A DNA stretch of 49,667 nt, taken from a virus. The notes under the pieces are model-generated. The model did no database searches. It saw only the letters and a program-made list of their open reading frames with translations, and was not told where the DNA came from. Below are positions 1,156-40,759 of the stretch, piece by piece. The stretch lies in IMG/VR virus record IMGVR_UViG_3300046810_000573, positions 1-49,667 of that record. The stretch is one strand, 5' to 3'. The position numbers and the translations under genes were made by a program. How positions within the stretch are numbered: position 1 is the first letter of the stretch; each line of letters begins with the position of its first letter.

Positions 1156-1382
1156 GCTCTCTCCTTATCATGTGCATCACCCGCGCTCACGGCGACAGTG
1201 TGCAACGGATTATTCAGGGCGGCAATACACGCCTGCCGGGTTACAAGATAGGGTGACTTGTTTTTGCTGGGGTCTTTACGTGTCGCGGTGAGTCGACCGG
1301 TCCGTATCCAGTTGCTGGCGGTCGGCCGGGAAATACCGAGAAACGCGCAGGCCTCATCCAGCGTCAGTGAGTACGCTTCCAT
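1011..1382 (-). CDS. Excisionase-like helix-turn-helix protein
   Basis: A 123-residue protein whose N-terminus carries a MerR/AlpA-type helix-turn-helix (residues 5-32, [20 protein letters not shown]) followed by a short wing ([11 protein letters not shown]). This resembles the HTH_17 class of phage excisionases and small regulators. A GAGG Shine-Dalgarno lies 6 bases before the ATG. It sits directly upstream of int, where xis is expected. The last 48 codons (1011-1155) overlap the beginning of int in another frame. The tail after residue 75 is low in recognisable structure and may simply be the consequence of reading into int. Function as Xis is inferred from position and fold; a transcriptional regulator is the alternative. 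Confidence 0.75.
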
Positions 1383-1463
1383 AGTTGACCTCGTTCAGAG
1401 TATTTTGAATATCGCCCAGGCGGCGATCACGAATGCTATTGCGATGAGAATGTGGGGGGGGGG

Positions 1464-2204
1464 TCACTTCAGGATGCTGAATGCAGTTGCTGCCACTCGC
1501 GGAACTTGTCCATTTCCAAGGGCTTTAAGTCGGTCCACCCCGAAGGCCACATCATCAGCCACTCTACATAATCGGGGGCTGCATTCAGGCCAGGGATTTC
1601 TTCTCCGCCCGCTTGCAGGTGTAACCAGCCAAGGTAGTCTTCCAAATTGTGCCTGTGCTCTCCCGTTCTCGCTCTGCACCAGGCTATTCCATGACTGCCC
1701 ATGCTCGCCCTTGGGGTAGGCAACAAGCCAGATCCGGTCACGGTTATGGGACGCTCCGCACTCAGATGCTGAAATACAACACCATTCCGCATCAAGCCCC
1801 AGCGTGGCAAGATCACCAAGGACCATTGCAAGTCCTCTTCCCACAAGCAAAGGTGAGTTTTCCAGCAGGACGTATGAGGGTCGAACCTCATCGACGATTC
1901 TTGCCATTTGCTTCCATAATCCCGAACGTGCTCCTTCGATTCCGGCTCCGCTGCCAGCTGCTGAAATGTCCTGGCAGGGAAAGCCTCCAGAAACGATGTC
2001 AACAATGCCTCTCCATGGCTTTCCATCAAAACTGCAGACGTCAGACCAAATCGGGAATGGTCGCAAGCATCTATCGTTTTGTCGTTGCGCCAGAACTTGT
2101 GCGGCGTAGGCATCACGTTCAACTGCGCAAACTGTCCTCCATCCAAGGAGGTGCCCGCCGAGTATTCCTCCGCCAGCGCCTGCGAAAAGAGCCAGCTCAT
2201 TCAT
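1464..2204 (-). CDS. DNA cytosine-5 methyltransferase (Dcm family)
   Basis: Would transfer a methyl group from S-adenosylmethionine to cytosine C5, probably to protect phage DNA from host restriction. Motif I is FAGAGGG (residues 7-13), motif IV is GGFPCQDIS with the catalytic Cys77, motif VI is ENS at 115-117, motif VIII is RDRIWLVA (155-162) and motif X is ALGNGQVP (228-235). At 246 residues it is short. Only about 65 residues separate motifs VIII and X, so there is little room for a target-recognition domain and the recognised site cannot be guessed. A second long ORF (1469-2200) covers almost exactly the same bases in another frame. The stop is followed by a ten-base C run on the coding strand. 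Confidence 0.93.
   Translation of the reverse strand: MNELALFAGAGGGILGGHLLGWRTVCAVERDAYAAQVLAQRQNDRCLRPFPIWSDVCSFDGKPWRGIVDIVSGGFPCQDISAAGSGAGIEGARSGLWKQMARIVDEVRPSYVLLENSPLLVGRGLAMVLGDLATLGLDAEWCCISASECGASHNRDRIWLVAYPKGEHGQSWNSLVQSENGRAQAQFGRLPWLVTPASGRRRNPWPECSPRLCRVADDVAFGVDRLKALGNGQVPRVAATAFSILK
1469..2200 (-). CDS. Uncharacterised protein fully overlapping the methyltransferase gene
   Basis: A 243-residue ORF on the same strand as the methyltransferase but in another frame, starting 4 bases after its ATG and stopping 5 bases before its stop. It begins MSWLFSQALAEEYSAG, is rich in Trp (about 15), and contains NVMPTPHKFWRNDKT near residues 28-42, LPTPRAS near 160-166 and VEWLMMWPSGWTDL at 212-225. 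From memory, this pattern (PTP blocks and a terminal VEWLMG-P-GWTDL motif) recurs in uncharacterised phage proteins found with cytosine methyltransferases, which argues for a real product; this recollection needs a search. A start at this position could be reached by the same ribosomes. Function is unknown. The cautious alternative is a shadow frame kept open by composition. Confidence 0.55.
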   Translation of the reverse strand: MSWLFSQALAEEYSAGTSLDGGQFAQLNVMPTPHKFWRNDKTIDACDHSRFGLTSAVLMESHGEALLTSFLEAFPARTFQQLAAEPESKEHVRDYGSKWQESSMRFDPHTSCWKTHLCLWEEDLQWSLVILPRWGLMRNGVVFQHLSAERPITVTGSGLLPTPRASMGSHGIAWCRARTGEHRHNLEDYLGWLHLQAGGEEIPGLNAAPDYVEWLMMWPSGWTDLKPLEMDKFREWQQLHSAS

Positions 2205-12298: not shown

Positions 12299-12312
12299 GC
12301 AAAGTCACGCAA
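12299..12312 (-). promoter_or_regulatory. CII binding site for PRE
   Basis: Minus strand TTGC-GTGACT-TTGC, the exact TTGC-N6-TTGC spacing bound by lambda CII, between cro and cII and pointing toward cI. The -10 expected 17 bp further is poor (CTTGGG), as is common for CII-dependent promoters. Confidence 0.72.
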
Positions 12313-12342
12313 AAACATAATCAACACGGAGAATTATCGGAT

Positions 12343-12615
12343 ATGGAACACGCAAACAACAGCAAGTTAATCAACCAGGTAGAAACAGAACTCCGCTCCA
12401 GACTAACCCATAAAGGCCAGCGCGCATTAGCGAGTGAGGCAGGGTGGCACGAATCGAAAGTAAGCCGCCTAAACCTTCGTGACATGGCGACTGTTTTCGT
12501 GCTGCTGGAAAAGGTGTGGGAGACAAGCCTGATCGCTGAGGTTGCCAGGCAGGCAGTTGAAGCTGTGATGGGAAAAGAAAAAGCCCCAAAGAGCGACGAA
12601 CTCTTTGAGGCCTGA
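12343..12615 (+). CDS. cII: CII transcriptional activator
   Basis: Activates lysogenic promoters by binding TTGC-N6-TTGC. The 90-residue length and layout match lambda CII: N-terminal helix (NSKLINQVETELRSRL), an HTH (RALASEAGWHESKVSRLN) and a C-terminal tetramer helix (SLIAEVARQAVEAVMG). It follows cro and nutR, as in lambda, and a matching site exists at 12299-12312. A second candidate site occurs near the lipoprotein gene at 36911. Confidence in the family is high. Confidence 0.92.
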   Translation: MEHANNSKLINQVETELRSRLTHKGQRALASEAGWHESKVSRLNLRDMATVFVLLEKVWETSLIAEVARQAVEAVMGKEKAPKSDELFEA

Positions 12616-18819: not shown

Positions 18820-18953
18820 TCGACTACCTCCGCCAAAAATGGCGCCACCTCAGGCTTTACCGCACCCGCAACACCTTCCCGATTGACTACCGCATCCTCC
18901 GCAACACAGCAAAGCTAATGGGAGCCAGAAATGAGCCTAGAATCAGCCGTTAA
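18816..18953 (+). CDS. YlcG-like small protein
   Basis: A 45-residue very basic peptide. MIDYLRQKWRHLRLYRTR and IDYRILRNTAKLMG match the YlcG family, a tiny protein encoded just before Q in lambdoid prophages such as DLP12. Both ends overlap neighbouring genes. The family has no known function. Confidence 0.78.
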   Translation: MIDYLRQKWRHLRLYRTRNTFPIDYRILRNTAKLMGARNEPRISR

Positions 18954-19698
18954 ATACTTCTTCCCAAAGAGCACCCAGATAAGCGACTCACCTCGGGCAA
19001 CCGCGTCAGAGGCATTAACCGGAACTGACCAGATGGCAGCAATGGGAATGGTTCAGTCGATGGCGCCAATGGGGTTTAGCGCGTTCCTGGGGAAAGTTGG
19101 GGTAAGTAATAACGACTCCCGACGAGCCGTTACTCTGTTAACTGAATATGCCTTACAAACCTGCGATAAGGTTGCCGCCTTACGCAAACTTGATACAGAT
19201 ATTAAACCAGCGGTCATGCAAACACTCGCAACTTATGCCTATCAGGATTATTGCCGAAGCGCCGCCAGCCTAAAGCCGTGCGACTGTTGTGCCGGTGAGG
19301 GCTTCATTGCTGCTGAAGTGGTGACGATGAAATCAATGCTTTCAGGTGGGTCAAACAGGCAGGTCAGGGAGCAAGTCAACGTCCTGTGTAAGTCCTGCAG
19401 GGGTAAGGGTGTTGTCTCGGCAGCCTGCCGGGATTGCAGCGGTAGAGGCCGGGCGGTCGATCGCAAAAAGACGGAAGAGCAGGGCTTGCCGGTAATGGGT
19501 GACTGCAAGCGCTGCAATGCCCGCGGATACGAAAGGATACCGTCCACCGAAGTTCACCGGTCTGTGTGCGGGATAACAGAGGCAATCACCCTGGATACAT
19601 GGAAGAAGAGTGGAAAGGCATTCTATGATCATTTAATTGGAAAGCTGGAGATTGAAGAATCATGGGCCAATTCAGCCTTAAATAAAGTCACCGCATAG
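18931..19698 (+). CDS. Q: Late antiterminator Q (phage 82 type)
   Basis: Would modify RNA polymerase paused at PR' so that it reads through the late terminators. The 255-residue protein has the Q82-family hallmark of DnaJ-like CxxCxGxG repeats: Cys117/120, Cys153/156, Cys166/169 and Cys192/195, probably binding zinc. It starts inside the YlcG-like gene, with GGGAGCC upstream. A late promoter and terminator follow directly (19736-19842), the expected target. Confidence 0.92.
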   Translation: MSLESAVKYFFPKSTQISDSPRATASEALTGTDQMAAMGMVQSMAPMGFSAFLGKVGVSNNDSRRAVTLLTEYALQTCDKVAALRKLDTDIKPAVMQTLATYAYQDYCRSAASLKPCDCCAGEGFIAAEVVTMKSMLSGGSNRQVREQVNVLCKSCRGKGVVSAACRDCSGRGRAVDRKKTEEQGLPVMGDCKRCNARGYERIPSTEVHRSVCGITEAITLDTWKKSGKAFYDHLIGKLEIEESWANSALNKVTA

Positions 19699-35134: not shown

Positions 35135-35713
35135 ATGATAATTAGCATCACAGCACTGGCCGCAGCATTTGCACCTTTGCTCACCGACGCGCAAGCAGAG
35201 GTTAATGGTGCTTTTAAGCCACTTGTAGCTGCTGAGTACAAAAAAGCCAAATCGCTTGATGTATCAGACGCTTTTGTGCGCTGCCACAAAGTTCAAGAAC
35301 ACGCTAATAAATTGCAAGAAGTAGCTGAGCAGGGCCTAGATCACCTAACGTCTGTTCGAGATGGGCATATTGACGTGAGAGATTTTCCTGAGGGATTTGA
35401 TGCCACTCTTGAAACGCTTGCTGTAGCTGTTACACAATTCATCAATCTCACTCGTGATATGTTTGAAACAGCTGAAAAATCAGAGGCTTGGGCTGGAAAT
35501 TATGCTTTGCTTAAGCCACTTAAAAAACAAATGATGGGCAGTTTGTCTCTTTTAAGAAGTAGCGCTAATCAGATTGCTATTGAAATCAGGCAGGCCAAAA
35601 CAGTGGTTGATAATGGCAAGCTTTTGGTAGATGGAACATCTGATGATGATCTTAAGCGCCTAATTAATAAATCCCACATGATGCTTGGGGTGGATACCCC
35701 TCGCTGGTCATAG
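35135..35713 (+). CDS. Hypothetical accessory protein upstream of a toxin-like gene
   Basis: A 192-residue, mostly helical protein (MIISITALAAAFAPLLTDAQ...). GGAG lies 8 bases before the ATG. The first 20 residues are hydrophobic, but there is no positive charge, so a signal peptide is doubtful. The helical body (VQEHANKLQEVAEQGL ... LLKPLKKQMMGSLSLLRSS) could be a binding partner. It is one base before the next gene, so the two form an operon. It may be an antitoxin or immunity partner for the YafO-like protein; no sequence family supports that. Confidence 0.6.
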   Translation: MIISITALAAAFAPLLTDAQAEVNGAFKPLVAAEYKKAKSLDVSDAFVRCHKVQEHANKLQEVAEQGLDHLTSVRDGHIDVRDFPEGFDATLETLAVAVTQFINLTRDMFETAEKSEAWAGNYALLKPLKKQMMGSLSLLRSSANQIAIEIRQAKTVVDNGKLLVDGTSDDDLKRLINKSHMMLGVDTPRWS

Positions 35714-35714
35714 A

Positions 35715-36131
35715 ATGATTAAGGTTAGCATCACTGAGAAGTTAAGAGATGATGTTACCGCGAGGCACTTTGCAATGTTAGTTGCAAGGTGCCTTTCTAA
35801 TTTACCTCCGTCACCCCTTTTAGGTAAGCGAGGTGGATTTGAAAGAAATCGCAGCGCCATGTCTGCCGGGATTGAAAAGTTTCATATCCGGATGCCCAGC
35901 GATATTCCCTGGCCTTCACATGTCCCATTGAGCAGGCGATCCAGCAATAACTATTTGGTTTTCGTTAGGCATTTTTATAATGATGATTATTTCCAAATTT
36001 TAGCACTCGTATCACCTGATGCTCATCAGAGAATTGATTCAATGCTCCCCGCTCTCATAGGATTAGCTGAAAGTACCTTCATCGAATTATCAGATGATGA
36101 CCTGGGTGCATTAGAGAATTTCACGATTTAG
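35715..36131 (+). CDS. YafO-like toxin candidate
   Basis: A 138-residue basic protein. The stretch WPSHVPLSRRSSNNYLVFVR, then FQILALVSPDAHQRIDSMLP and LIGLAESTF, resembles the YafO mRNA-interferase pattern (rTSd-x-LVY...ilkPxxH...AE-x-F), but the similarity is partial and from memory. The protein is about the same length as YafO (132). It follows the 192-residue gene after one base and has a terminator at 36135. A regulatory or exclusion role is the alternative. Confidence 0.5.
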   Translation: MIKVSITEKLRDDVTARHFAMLVARCLSNLPPSPLLGKRGGFERNRSAMSAGIEKFHIRMPSDIPWPSHVPLSRRSSNNYLVFVRHFYNDDYFQILALVSPDAHQRIDSMLPALIGLAESTFIELSDDDLGALENFTI

Positions 36132-36134
36132 AAG

Positions 36135-36155
36135 CCCGCCACCCGGCGGGTTTTT
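36135..36155 (+). terminator. Terminator after the toxin-like pair
   Basis: CCCGCC-ACCC-GGCGGG followed by TTTTT. Confidence 0.88.
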
Positions 36156-36198
36156 ACTATCTGGACTTGCTCACCCCACCAAACCGGTATTATCAATT

Positions 36199-36810
36199 TC
36201 AATGCTTTTTGTGTGCATCCCAACAGGATTTACACCATGCCATCAGTGAATCTGCATTGTTATTGTTTGTATAGAAACTTGTACGCTTGCGGCGAATTTT
36301 GCACTTAGGGCACCACTTCATGTGTTTAGTGTTCTTATCGCCCTTAAGACACTCGGTGCACCATATCGTAACTCCATCGGGATTCTTACTGGATTTACTG
36401 AATTTACTGAGTGGAAGATTGACCCGGCAGCGAGTACATTGTTTTTTGTCTTCAGCCCAGGTATTTGGTTCAATAACACGGTTCTCAGCTAGCGTAGTAA
36501 GCTTTTCCTTCATAGGGGAGGCTGTGATGGTAGTGGGATTAATATCAACAACTACAGCTTGCTGAGAGCGGCCATGGGCCAAGGCTTGATTGTGAACTTC
36601 AGTTGAACTTAGTTGTACGGGCTGAGGGCTAGTAAATGTTGTCTGAGAAGTATCTACAGTTTTCGTGCGTTCAATCGTCACTTCACCGGTTTCTGTCTTA
36701 TATGTATCTTTTTGTCGTATGACAGTTTTATCCGTAGTTTTTGTCTTGTTATGATTAATCACATATATGACAACTACAACCACACATACGACAATCCAAA
36801 AAATTTCCAT
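36199..36810 (-). CDS. Membrane-anchored zinc-ribbon protein on the opposite strand
   Basis: A 203-residue protein with an N-terminal membrane anchor (residues 3-20, IFWIVVCVVVVVIYVI), a polar linker of about 100 residues, and a C-terminal cysteine module: CTRCRVNLPLSKFSKSSKNP ... CTECLKG, then CPKC and CKSCWD, in four CxxC pairs. The CxxC...F.......C..C pattern resembles zinc ribbons of endonuclease VII type. It is read against the tail operon, so it could be transcribed in the lysogen. Possible superinfection-related role is speculation. Confidence 0.7.
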   Translation of the reverse strand: MEIFWIVVCVVVVVIYVINHNKTKTTDKTVIRQKDTYKTETGEVTIERTKTVDTSQTTFTSPQPVQLSSTEVHNQALAHGRSQQAVVVDINPTTITASPMKEKLTTLAENRVIEPNTWAEDKKQCTRCRVNLPLSKFSKSSKNPDGVTIWCTECLKGDKNTKHMKWCPKCKIRRKRTSFYTNNNNADSLMAWCKSCWDAHKKH

Positions 36811-36910: not shown

Positions 36911-36924
36911 TTGCGTTGCCTTGC
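36911..36924 (+). promoter_or_regulatory. CII-site-like sequence before the lipoprotein gene
   Basis: TTGC-GTTGCC-TTGC has the exact TTGC-N6-TTGC spacing. A -10 TAGGAT lies 17 bp after the N6 block, the lambda PRE geometry. Such an arrangement would make the gene CII-inducible. It could be chance. Confidence 0.5.
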
Positions 36925-36943
36925 AGCCACTCCATGCTAGGAT
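36916..36943 (+). promoter_or_regulatory. Promoter of the lipoprotein gene
   Basis: TTGCCT (36916-36921), 16 bp, TAGGAT (36938-36943) with an extended TG at 36935. The same pattern occurs before the Cor-like gene. Confidence 0.62.
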
Positions 36944-36975
36944 TTATCCCAACACTTACGTTTGGGGATAGGGAT

Positions 36976-37275
36976 ATGAGGAAGTTAATTTTAGGTCTGG
37001 GTTTTTCATTTTTACTCGCAGGTTGCGCATCAGTAGGTCAAGACTTCGACGAAGGTAAAATTAGCCAAATCCAGAAGGGCGTGACAACTGAACAAGAAGT
37101 GATTAGTGAGTTTGGTCAGCCCACCTCAAGAAGCGTTGACTCAGAAGGAAACTCAGTTCTGATTTGGACATATAGCCACGCAAATGCCTTTGGTAAAGCA
37201 AATGGTAAATCTCTATTGGTTCAACTCAGTGGCGGAAAGGTTAAGACCTACACGGTTAACAAAACCTCATTCTAA
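36976..37275 (+). CDS. SmpA/OmlA-like lipoprotein
   Basis: A 99-residue lipoprotein. The signal peptide MRKLILGLGFSFLLAGC ends in the lipobox LLAGC (Cys17). The mature part has the BamE/SmpA-OmlA pattern: IQKGVTTEQEVISEFGQPTS ... LIWTYSHANA. GGGGATAGGG precedes the ATG at 36976. With its own promoter and terminator it is a moron, possibly expressed in the lysogen and active at the cell surface, for instance in exclusion; that is inference. Confidence 0.85.
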   Translation: MRKLILGLGFSFLLAGCASVGQDFDEGKISQIQKGVTTEQEVISEFGQPTSRSVDSEGNSVLIWTYSHANAFGKANGKSLLVQLSGGKVKTYTVNKTSF

Positions 37276-37296
37276 AACCTTAAATGCAATTCAATG

Positions 37297-37321
37297 AACC
37301 TCGCTTCGGCGGGGTTTTTTT
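37297..37321 (+). terminator. Terminator after the lipoprotein gene
   Basis: AACCTCGC-TTCG-GCGGGGTT with one T-G pair, followed by TTTTT. Confidence 0.85.
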
Positions 37322-37339: not shown

Positions 37340-40300
37340 ATGGCTGGTTCAGTAAATGCAGGCGGAATCGTTTATGAAGTAGAGATGAATGTCGCCAGGC
37401 TAATAGAGGGTCAGCGCCAAGTCAATGAGCGCCTGGACCGGCTGGACTCAAGTTTCAATAGCACGGCGAAGTCTGCTGGGAATGCGGAGAAATCATTTTC
37501 CTCTCTTTCAAAAGTTGCTTCTGCGCTTGCCGCCGCTATCTCAATTAAGCAAGTGGCGGAATATGGTAATGCCTGGGTAACGGTCAACAACAAGCTTGCA
37601 AACTCAGTTCAGGCTAATGAAAAACTTGCTGATGTCACACAGCGAGTCTTTGATATCTCACAGGACACACGCTCAAGCCTGGGGGCGACTGCAACCCTTT
37701 ATGGGCGACTTGAGCGATCAACGAGAAGTGCCGGCACGAGTACTGCTGATCTAATAAAGCTGACAACAACAATCAACAAAGGTCTGGCTGTTTCAGGTGC
37801 TACCACGGAAGAAGCCAGCTCGACCATGACTCAGCTTTCACAGGCACTGGCGTCTGGCGTACTGCGAGGGGAGGAATTCAACTCCATCTCTGAAAACGGC
37901 AGTCGCCTGGCTGTAGCTCTGGCGGACTCTCTTGGAGTGACAATCGGTCAACTCAGGGGAATGGCGGCTCAAGGCAAACTGACCACGGAAGTAGTGGTTA
38001 ATGGCTTGCTGAAGCAAAGCGATGCCATCGCCAAAGAGTTCGGCAACACCGCCCTCACGATGGGGCAGGCTTTTACTGTCGCCACTAACAACATCACTAA
38101 ATTCGTAGGTGAGAGTTCAAGCGTTAATACCTCTATCAAAGTATTCAATCAGGGGGTTATTTCTCTCAGTGAGAATCTGGATGTTGTGGCAAATGTTGTA
38201 GGAGCGGCAGCGGTAATTTTTGGTGGAAGGTATGTTGGAGCGTTGGCATTAGCAACCAAAGCAAAGGTAGACGATGCATTGGCGGCACGCGGACAGGCCG
38301 TGGCCACCGCAGAGTCAACCGCTGCAGCAGCAACTTCGGCTGGCGTTGTTGCCCGCAAAGCCCTGCTGGATAAAGAAGCTGCCCTGTCATCACTTGCGCT
38401 GGCTCAGGCTGAATATAACGTAGCTAAGGGATCAGCAGCAGAGGCGTTTGCTCTTGAAAACCTGACGGCCGTTAAGTCTGTGGCAATCCAGCGTTCTGCG
38501 GCGTATGCGGAGGCTGAGATTTCTCAGGCCGCAGCAACAAAAACTGCAACAGCGGCAGCGGTTACCGCAACGGGAACAATTAAATCTCTGGCGAGTGGCG
38601 CTCTTGCTCTCATCGGTGGTCCTGTAGGCGCGGCAGTGATAGCAGCAGCTGGTATCTTCTATTTTTATCAGAAGATGCAGCAGGCCCGGCAAGAAAGTAT
38701 CGATTTCGCTGACAAACTTGACGGTGTGATCGCCAAGATGAAAGGGCTGAGTCAAATTCAGCTTGCTGCGGAGATCGACAATGCCACTAAGTCAATCAGC
38801 GCACAGGCTGGCGCACTCAAAGACAATCAATCGAGCATTGAATCTAACGAGCTTCAGCAGTCGAGACTGCGCCGCACGCTTAGTTATCTGGAAGAGGGAA
38901 GCCTGCTTTACAAAGTAACGCTTTCAGAGTTGTCAGATGCCCAGAGTGAACACACTCAACTTTTAGCTCAGAACGAAACTGCGCAAAACAAGCTAAGCCA
39001 GACGGTGAGCAAAACTGGAATTCTCCGTGCTCAGATGAATGGTACATTTGCTCAAGGCATCGATTTGCTTAAGCGCGATGGTGAACAGGCTGGAGTAGCT
39101 GCAGGCTTGATGAATCAATTCGGTAACGCAATCGACTTTGCCAGCCGGGCAAAAGATAAATTCAACTCAACCAGCCTGCAGATACCACGCAGCGATAAAG
39201 CAGATGCTTATAACAAGGACCTGGACGATGAAAACACTCTCCTTGCCATCACCGATAAACGACTGCGCGCTGTAACCAAAGCTCGCATGGAGGCTGGAGA
39301 TAAAGGGGGGAATCAGAATCAGGTAAATGCAGCGGGTCAACTTGCAGGCGCTCAATATGACCTGCAGCAGGCTGAAGCTGCTAGAAACAAGGAAACAAAG
39401 GAAGGGATTTCTCAAGGGAAAAAGGCTGAGACTCAGGCTGAGTCTATTGCTCAAAAACTTGCAAACCTTAAGCAACAATCCGAGTTGGCCAGCGACTCCA
39501 CACGAGAGCTTAGCCGTGATCAGGCCATTTTGACGGCGCAGCAATCGCTTGGCAGCGCAGCAACTGAGAAAGACATCAAGTTGGCAGGCCAGTACGCGGC
39601 CGCGAAATGGGATACCGGCAATGCAATTCGCGCGCAGGCGGCGGCAGAAAAACTCCTGCCTGAAACGAAGGAGAATGCCAGCTACAAACAGGATGTTTCA
39701 GACCTGCAGACAGCTTTGTCGGCCAAAAAAATCAGCCAGGAGCAATTCAATTCTACTTCGGAAAGGCTTGAGCAAGAGCATCAGGTCAACCTAGCCAAGA
39801 TCCGCGCAGAACAGGTTGTTACACCTCAGCAGGCGGCGGCGGGAACTGTTGATCCAGTGCAGCAACTTGCAAATGAAAATGCTCAAAAACTGGCTTTGAT
39901 CCAACAGTTTGAATCCAACAAGACCATTACTGAACAGCAGGGAATGGCTTTACGTAACGCGGCAAATACTGAGTATGAGCAAGCCCGCATTGATGCAGCG
40001 TGGAAGATTTGGGAGAACCAAAACGAAACGAATCAACTAATGGGAAGCGCTATCGACTCTCTTCAGGGTGGCGCCACCAATGCGATAACCGGGCTTATTA
40101 ATGGAACCCAAAGCTTGCAGGAGTCGCTGGCTAACATCGGAACCACCATTCTCAATAGCGTTGTTAGCGCATTGGTCCAGATGGGCATTGAATGGGTAAA
40201 AGCCCAGGTCATGGGTTCTGCTGCGCAAACATCCGCAACTATTTCAAATCAGGCAACAGCTACAGCTGCTCTGGCGGCCTCAACTGCAACAGGAGTAGCT

Positions 40301-40759
40301 TCCGCTGCGACCCTTCTTGCTGCTTGGACTCCTGCAGCAATGGCTGCATCAATTGCCAGTTATGGAGGCGCAGCAGCGGCGGGCCTTGCGGGATATACCT
40401 CCGCAATGACATCGGCTCAGGCTATATCCATTGCGGGATTCCGCAAGAACGGCGGGCCGGTATCTGCCGGCTCAATGTACCAGGTTGGCGAAGGCGGAAT
40501 GCCTGAAATCTATCAGGCCAGCACAGGCAAGCAGTACATGATCCCCGGTGATAACGGCTCAGTTATCAGCAATAAGGACCTGGCTGGCTCGGGAGGCGGC
40601 GGAGGTGTCATCAACCAGGTGAACCACTTCACTTTCGAAGGCTCGACCGCCGACACAACTCAAACCCAGGCAACTTTCGCCAAAATTGCTTACGACCAGT
40701 CTCTCAAGGCAATAAAAGACCAGCAGCGGCCAGGTGGCATGCTGCAAAAAAGCAGGTAA
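37340..40759 (+). CDS. Tail tape measure protein
   Basis: A 1139-residue protein that sets tail length and lies inside the tail tube. The N-terminal tape-measure domain is recognisable (NVARLIEGQRQVNERLDRLD ... LYGRLERSTRSAG ... TTEEASSTMTQLSQALASGV ... LRGEEFNSISENGSRLAVAL). Ala-rich coiled coils and hydrophobic segments occur at 395-450 and 970-1050, and the end has KNGGPVSAGSMYQVGEGGMP. The length suggests a long tail, assuming the usual proportionality. AGGAG precedes the ATG. It is separated from the chaperone gene by the accessory block. Confidence 0.95.
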   Translation: MAGSVNAGGIVYEVEMNVARLIEGQRQVNERLDRLDSSFNSTAKSAGNAEKSFSSLSKVASALAAAISIKQVAEYGNAWVTVNNKLANSVQANEKLADVTQRVFDISQDTRSSLGATATLYGRLERSTRSAGTSTADLIKLTTTINKGLAVSGATTEEASSTMTQLSQALASGVLRGEEFNSISENGSRLAVALADSLGVTIGQLRGMAAQGKLTTEVVVNGLLKQSDAIAKEFGNTALTMGQAFTVATNNITKFVGESSSVNTSIKVFNQGVISLSENLDVVANVVGAAAVIFGGRYVGALALATKAKVDDALAARGQAVATAESTAAAATSAGVVARKALLDKEAALSSLALAQAEYNVAKGSAAEAFALENLTAVKSVAIQRSAAYAEAEISQAAATKTATAAAVTATGTIKSLASGALALIGGPVGAAVIAAAGIFYFYQKMQQARQESIDFADKLDGVIAKMKGLSQIQLAAEIDNATKSISAQAGALKDNQSSIESNELQQSRLRRTLSYLEEGSLLYKVTLSELSDAQSEHTQLLAQNETAQNKLSQTVSKTGILRAQMNGTFAQGIDLLKRDGEQAGVAAGLMNQFGNAIDFASRAKDKFNSTSLQIPRSDKADAYNKDLDDENTLLAITDKRLRAVTKARMEAGDKGGNQNQVNAAGQLAGAQYDLQQAEAARNKETKEGISQGKKAETQAESIAQKLANLKQQSELASDSTRELSRDQAILTAQQSLGSAATEKDIKLAGQYAAAKWDTGNAIRAQAAAEKLLPETKENASYKQDVSDLQTALSAKKISQEQFNSTSERLEQEHQVNLAKIRAEQVVTPQQAAAGTVDPVQQLANENAQKLALIQQFESNKTITEQQGMALRNAANTEYEQARIDAAWKIWENQNETNQLMGSAIDSLQGGATNAITGLINGTQSLQESLANIGTTILNSVVSALVQMGIEWVKAQVMGSAAQTSATISNQATATAALAASTATGVASAATLLAAWTPAAMAASIASYGGAAAAGLAGYTSAMTSAQAISIAGFRKNGGPVSAGSMYQVGEGGMPEIYQASTGKQYMIPGDNGSVISNKDLAGSGGGGGVINQVNHFTFEGSTADTTQTQATFAKIAYDQSLKAIKDQQRPGGMLQKSR

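Follow-up and report, generated by a model that had tools for sequence, protein, structure and literature searches.

Within the window, by which we mean the whole stretch of 49,667 nucleotides that was analysed, a small lipoprotein gene of this temperate phage lies among the tail genes in the late region, just before the tape-measure gene. The features of this locus are as follows:

35685-36810: a YafO-type toxin gene (PF13957, E 5.9e-15) and a reverse-strand gene (endonuclease VII-like PHROG matches)
36911..36924, plus strand: CII half-sites TTGC-GTTGCC-TTGC, a direct repeat with a 10-bp period flanking the -35 position
36916..36921, plus strand: sigma70-like -35 TTGCCT (4/6), overlapping the half-sites, 16 bp from TAGGAT; a possible basal promoter
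36938..36943, plus strand: -10 hexamer TAGGAT, with TGC directly 5' (extended -10), 13 bp after the second TTGC
36944..36975, plus strand: conserved leader TTATCCCA...GGGGATAGGGAT, including the Shine-Dalgarno sequence GGGGAT
36976..37275, plus strand: 99-aa lipoprotein, lipobox LLAGC; phrog_3135 (unknown function); predicted BamE-like fold
37296..37317, plus strand: terminator-like hairpin and T-run that closes the cassette
37340..40759, plus strand: tape-measure gene, which usually follows the cassette

Together the toxin gene, the reverse-strand gene and the lipoprotein gene make up an accessory island ahead of the tape-measure gene.

Anatomy of the promoter and its counterparts

It can be seen that the two TTGC half-sites (36911-36914 and 36921-36924) enclose a central hexamer, GTTGCC (36915-36920), from which the -10 is 17 bp distant, exactly the spacing of lambda pRE. 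The sequence-only reading had described this likeness to lambda, and both the letters and the spacing are confirmed. The lipoprotein start codon is at 36976, 33 bp downstream of the promoter. Scored as a -35 element, GTTGCC at 17 bp matches at 2/6 positions and TTGCCT at 16 bp at 4/6; because the latter overlaps the site, some CII-independent expression is possible in the window.

A potential explanation for the resemblance is that it arose by chance, and TTGCN6TTGC pairs counted without a -10 requirement are indeed at chance level (the window has 5, and 4.13 would be expected). However, under a rule that demands TTGCN6TTGC plus, at exactly 17 bp, a -10 matching in 4/6 positions or more, the window holds three sites; shuffled sequences averaged 0.09, and three were not attained in any of 200 shuffles. 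Chance resemblance was therefore rejected for the full geometry, which is moreover conserved across many phages, and we regard it as extremely improbable; the bare pair stays at chance. The three in-register sites are pRE (over cII), the lipoprotein promoter and, within Q, a counterpart of paQ. Their half-sites are exact in every case, and allowing one half-site mismatch gave no further in-register sites in the window. The elements involved are:

12343..12615, plus strand: cII, whose product is the proposed activator (PF05269, E 5.9e-10; phrog_191)
12333..12365, minus strand: pRE, TTGCTGTTGTTTGC-N13-GATAAT, over the cII start
19199..19231, minus strand: paQ counterpart, TTGCGAGTGTTTGC-N13-TAATAT, antisense inside Q (18931-19698)

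Lambda pRE, pI and paQ likewise combine a TTGCN6TTGC bracketing the -35 with a -10 at 17 bp, and the window has its pRE and paQ counterpart at the same positions as lambda, the latter 300 bp past the start of Q. When lambda was used as a positive control the same rule returned pRE (38382), pI (29104) and paQ (44186), with a -10 in register nowhere else; the -10 of lambda pRE scores 3/6 in this control. Unlike the situation at lambda pI, no TTGCN6TTGC with an in-register -10 was present before int (window 1156-1800, minus strand), and int may be outside the control of this type of CII. A run of ten G at 1454-1463, a possible slippage site, adjoins the int-xis region. There is also an extra TTGCN6TTGC (TTGCGTGACTTTGC) at 12299-12312 (minus strand), just downstream of pRE and lacking a -10, which could be a chance occurrence or an auxiliary CII site. 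The lambda CII promoters drive cI, int or antisense RNA, whereas the window promoter would drive a sense accessory gene in the late region.

A recurrent promoter-leader cassette

Relatives identified through the tape-measure gene carry the same arrangement 420-1090 bp upstream of that gene, ahead of differing genes. Viral contigs were scanned with a pattern combining the half-sites and TAGGATTTA (TTGCN6TTGCN13TAGGATTTA), and 82 stretches matched. In 79 of the 80 scan matches listed (the exception being L215) a small gene stands behind a leader of the same type, its start mostly 58-72 nt beyond the site, and the encoded proteins are of many unrelated kinds. BLAST sorts the proteins downstream of such sites into more than 20 clusters, a few small ones of which represent spurious frames at pRE sites; most of the proteins are lipoproteins or secreted, and some are without a signal peptide. 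A tape-measure gene follows within 3 kb at 63 of the 80 sites that have enough downstream DNA. The hosts named in genome collections are chiefly Pantoea and Mixta. Annotated examples of the cassette occur in Erwinia phage Midgardsormr38 and in one E. coli prophage, and among annotated phages no DNA nearly identical to that of the window was found. Four stretches (L184, L189, L211 and L222) contain a tandem pair of accessory genes, each preceded by a CII-type promoter and leader of its own.

We conclude that in these phages a CII-type promoter, as recognised from its sequence, is a recurrent and conserved arrangement before accessory genes. The earlier view that CII-controlled genes are unusual outside the immunity and int regions calls for revision in this group, and such a site had already been suggested for a conversion cassette: in phage epsilon34 two TTGCN6TTGC sites lie upstream of the gtr genes, and the authors suggested activation by CII (PMC2629481). 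The gtrA case concerned a single phage and a single operon and was offered as a suggestion, whereas here a promoter-leader cassette is common to many gene families. In the open-access literature we came across no description of a shared cassette of the CII type, or of CII-driven morons, although this does not in itself prove novelty.

Like the morons of lambdoid phages, the lipoprotein gene is an extra late-operon gene with a terminator of its own. It is inserted between conserved late genes, varies among relatives and, by sequence, has its own promoter as well. Classical morons are active in the prophage, a state in which CII is lacking. The possible moron annotated as gp20 in ES18 also precedes the tape measure gene and has the same leader as the cassette, but unlike the window lipoprotein promoter it is without CII half-sites. 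In ES18 (L332:1461-1540), L248 and L264 the leader is a variant with TTGTCG approximately 29 bp upstream of TAGGAT, so that the -35 is unclear.

Half-site conservation and the link to pRE

A set of 71 promoters was picked by the ribosome-binding leader rather than by TTGC. Mismatches over the eight half-site bases were bimodal, with 0-1 in 27/71 promoters and at least 4 in 39/71. Within the low-mismatch group, pairwise identity was 95% in the half-sites and 90% in the -10, compared with 43% in N6 and N13, a pattern from which we conclude that selection acts on the half-sites. TTGTCG as a -35 at 17 bp is common in the high-mismatch group, where the promoters look as if a sigma70 -35 replaces the activator sites. 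The existence of such same-leader promoters with TTGTCG and no half-sites means that the cassette can do without CII in some phages.

The type of accessory promoter follows the type of pRE. Among records with half-site promoters a PF05269 match was found in 27/29 and a TTGCN6TTGC pRE at cII in 26/29; the three site-bearing records without a recognised cII having a TTGC-type pRE are G032, G035 and G046. Same-leader records without half-sites have a TTGCN6TTGC pRE in 2/27 cases. The association of promoter type with pRE type gives a Fisher p of 3e-10, a value to be read with the records being related rather than independent, and with promoter class and host clade partly confounded. With the strict pattern the half-site group yielded about three sites per record, namely pRE, usually a paQ-like site and the accessory promoter, position inside Q being established for the window and lambda and 'paQ-like' elsewhere referring to sequence and orientation; a reversed control gave two matches in total, and the group without half-sites had six sites in 27 records.

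Several of the same-leader records without half-sites encode a CII whose pRE reads TTGCN6TTGA. In L335-L341, which belong to this class, the CII-like protein has a short C-terminus and the pRE is TTGC-N6-TTGA; judging from these features, the proteins possibly differ in CII specificity. Divergent leaders of the TATCAT and TAACAT types, from other clades, conform to this rule, with half-sites and a TTGC pRE in L068, L247 and L330. L301 is an exception, as half-sites are present while its CII is distant and there is no TTGC pRE. In an unbiased set of 37 records chosen solely by resemblance of their CII to that of the window, a pRE was found in 36, and nine had a further site (10 sites in total) ahead of an accessory gene. 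Three of these nine (L422, L423 and L425) carry a different leader, which argues that the half-sites are not a mere passenger of one leader.

These observations bear on what might read the promoter. The spacing of half-sites names no protein, and the TTGC direct repeats could in principle be recognised by an activator other than CII. However, within the same genomes these half-sites recur at the pRE that overlies cII and at paQ-like positions, and in same-leader records they are jointly missing; we consider a different activator very unlikely. Alternatively, the promoter might be that of a constitutive moron, with RNA polymerase alone using TTGCCT-N16-TGCTAGGAT and the lipoprotein being made from the resident prophage. 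A 4/6 -35 at 16 bp joined to an extended -10 would suit this explanation, as would the sister promoters that have the same leader and TTGTCG-N17 without half-sites. Against it, many half-site promoters keep both TTGC elements though their N6 (ACCATC, ACCAAC or TTCCTT) is without such a -35, and TTGC-bearing promoters track the TTGC-type pRE, so purely constitutive use appears unlikely.

A third possibility combines basal expression in the lysogen, leaking from a -35 inside N6, with a burst driven by CII at infection. Some N6 variants (GTTGCC, ATTGTC and GTTGTT) do hold a TTGxC-like or TTG-type -35 while the half-sites are kept; basal strength, however, is beyond judging by sequence. We view such dual use as a plausible though less probable option, and it is a variant of activation by CII rather than an exclusive rival, so that our confidences in the two overlap.

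Our preferred interpretation is that CII activates the promoter at 36911-36943, which serves an accessory (moron) cassette, and to this reading we assign a probability of about 0.85. The CII-type reading proposed at the outset is strongly supported by the anatomy of the promoter, by its conservation and by the presence, in the same records, of CII and a pRE of the TTGC type; that CII binds and activates here, when it would do so and what the product does are the parts that we infer.

Leader, product and proposed mechanism

Comparison of the leader with known RNA families gave no match above gathering scores. In folding predictions the probability that the Shine-Dalgarno sequence is unpaired was 0.28 in the read-through RNA, 0.37 when the upstream 26 nt were shuffled and 0.49 in the predicted own transcript. 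A hairpin covering this sequence shows a modest trend across related sequences, and is weak for the window itself (0.29 vs 0.36). The leader may fold in read-through RNA so as to cover the ribosome-binding site.

A model of the lipoprotein built from 20 relatives (pLDDT 77) matched BamE in Foldseek with probability 1.00 and E 0.013. It aligned with E. coli BamE (5d0o_E) at VIA Z 9.6 over 77 residues and 2.7 A, and with OsmE (4dm5) at Z 7.8, identity to E. coli BamE being 12-14%. A Pfam search of the lipoprotein listed no BamE/SmpA_OmlA match at E 0.1, comparison of its profile with the sequences of solved structures gave nothing convincing, and a protein-pattern search of viral and genome contigs found no close relatives; the relatives used were reached via those of the tape-measure protein and cII, and some carry the record annotations SmpA/OmlA or BamE. 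A match to the PHROG Cor (E 0.095) was confined to the signal peptide. The fold is thus predicted to be like that of the BamE/SmpA-OmlA and OsmE lipoproteins, whereas the window protein is a phage accessory product, and a shared BamE fold does not establish function. One guess from the model would be interference with outer-membrane protein assembly or with receptors. The suggestion that the lipoprotein is an exclusion factor found no support here.

In lambda, CII levels are high for a few minutes in cells bound for lysogeny. We propose that during infection the phage CII would bind the two TTGC half-sites either side of a poor -35 and recruit sigma70 RNA polymerase to TAGGAT, with transcription starting near 36950. 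CII would in this way switch on pRE (for CI synthesis), paQ (to delay Q and late gene expression) and the lipoprotein promoter together. Given a CII-activated start, the lipoprotein would be made in the period when lysogeny is being established, and would reach the envelope at that time.

As a signal of the lysogeny switch stands before varied accessory genes in dozens of phages, these genes are probably on at lysogeny commitment. A bolder and more tentative proposal, which we think somewhat doubtful, is that an exchangeable and mostly envelope-directed pool of accessory genes is wired to CII, with pRE, paQ and the accessory gene as the three standard targets of a regulon for lysogeny commitment, and that in late read-through RNA a hairpin of the leader masks the ribosome-binding site, such that the proteins would be made only at lysogeny commitment and not in lytic growth.

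Accessory genes are usually regarded as expressed from the silent prophage. If a large accessory family is tied to CII, envelope proteins would be deployed in the few minutes of the lysogeny choice, and the pattern of half-sites and -10 would provide a sequence signature for finding such accessory genes.
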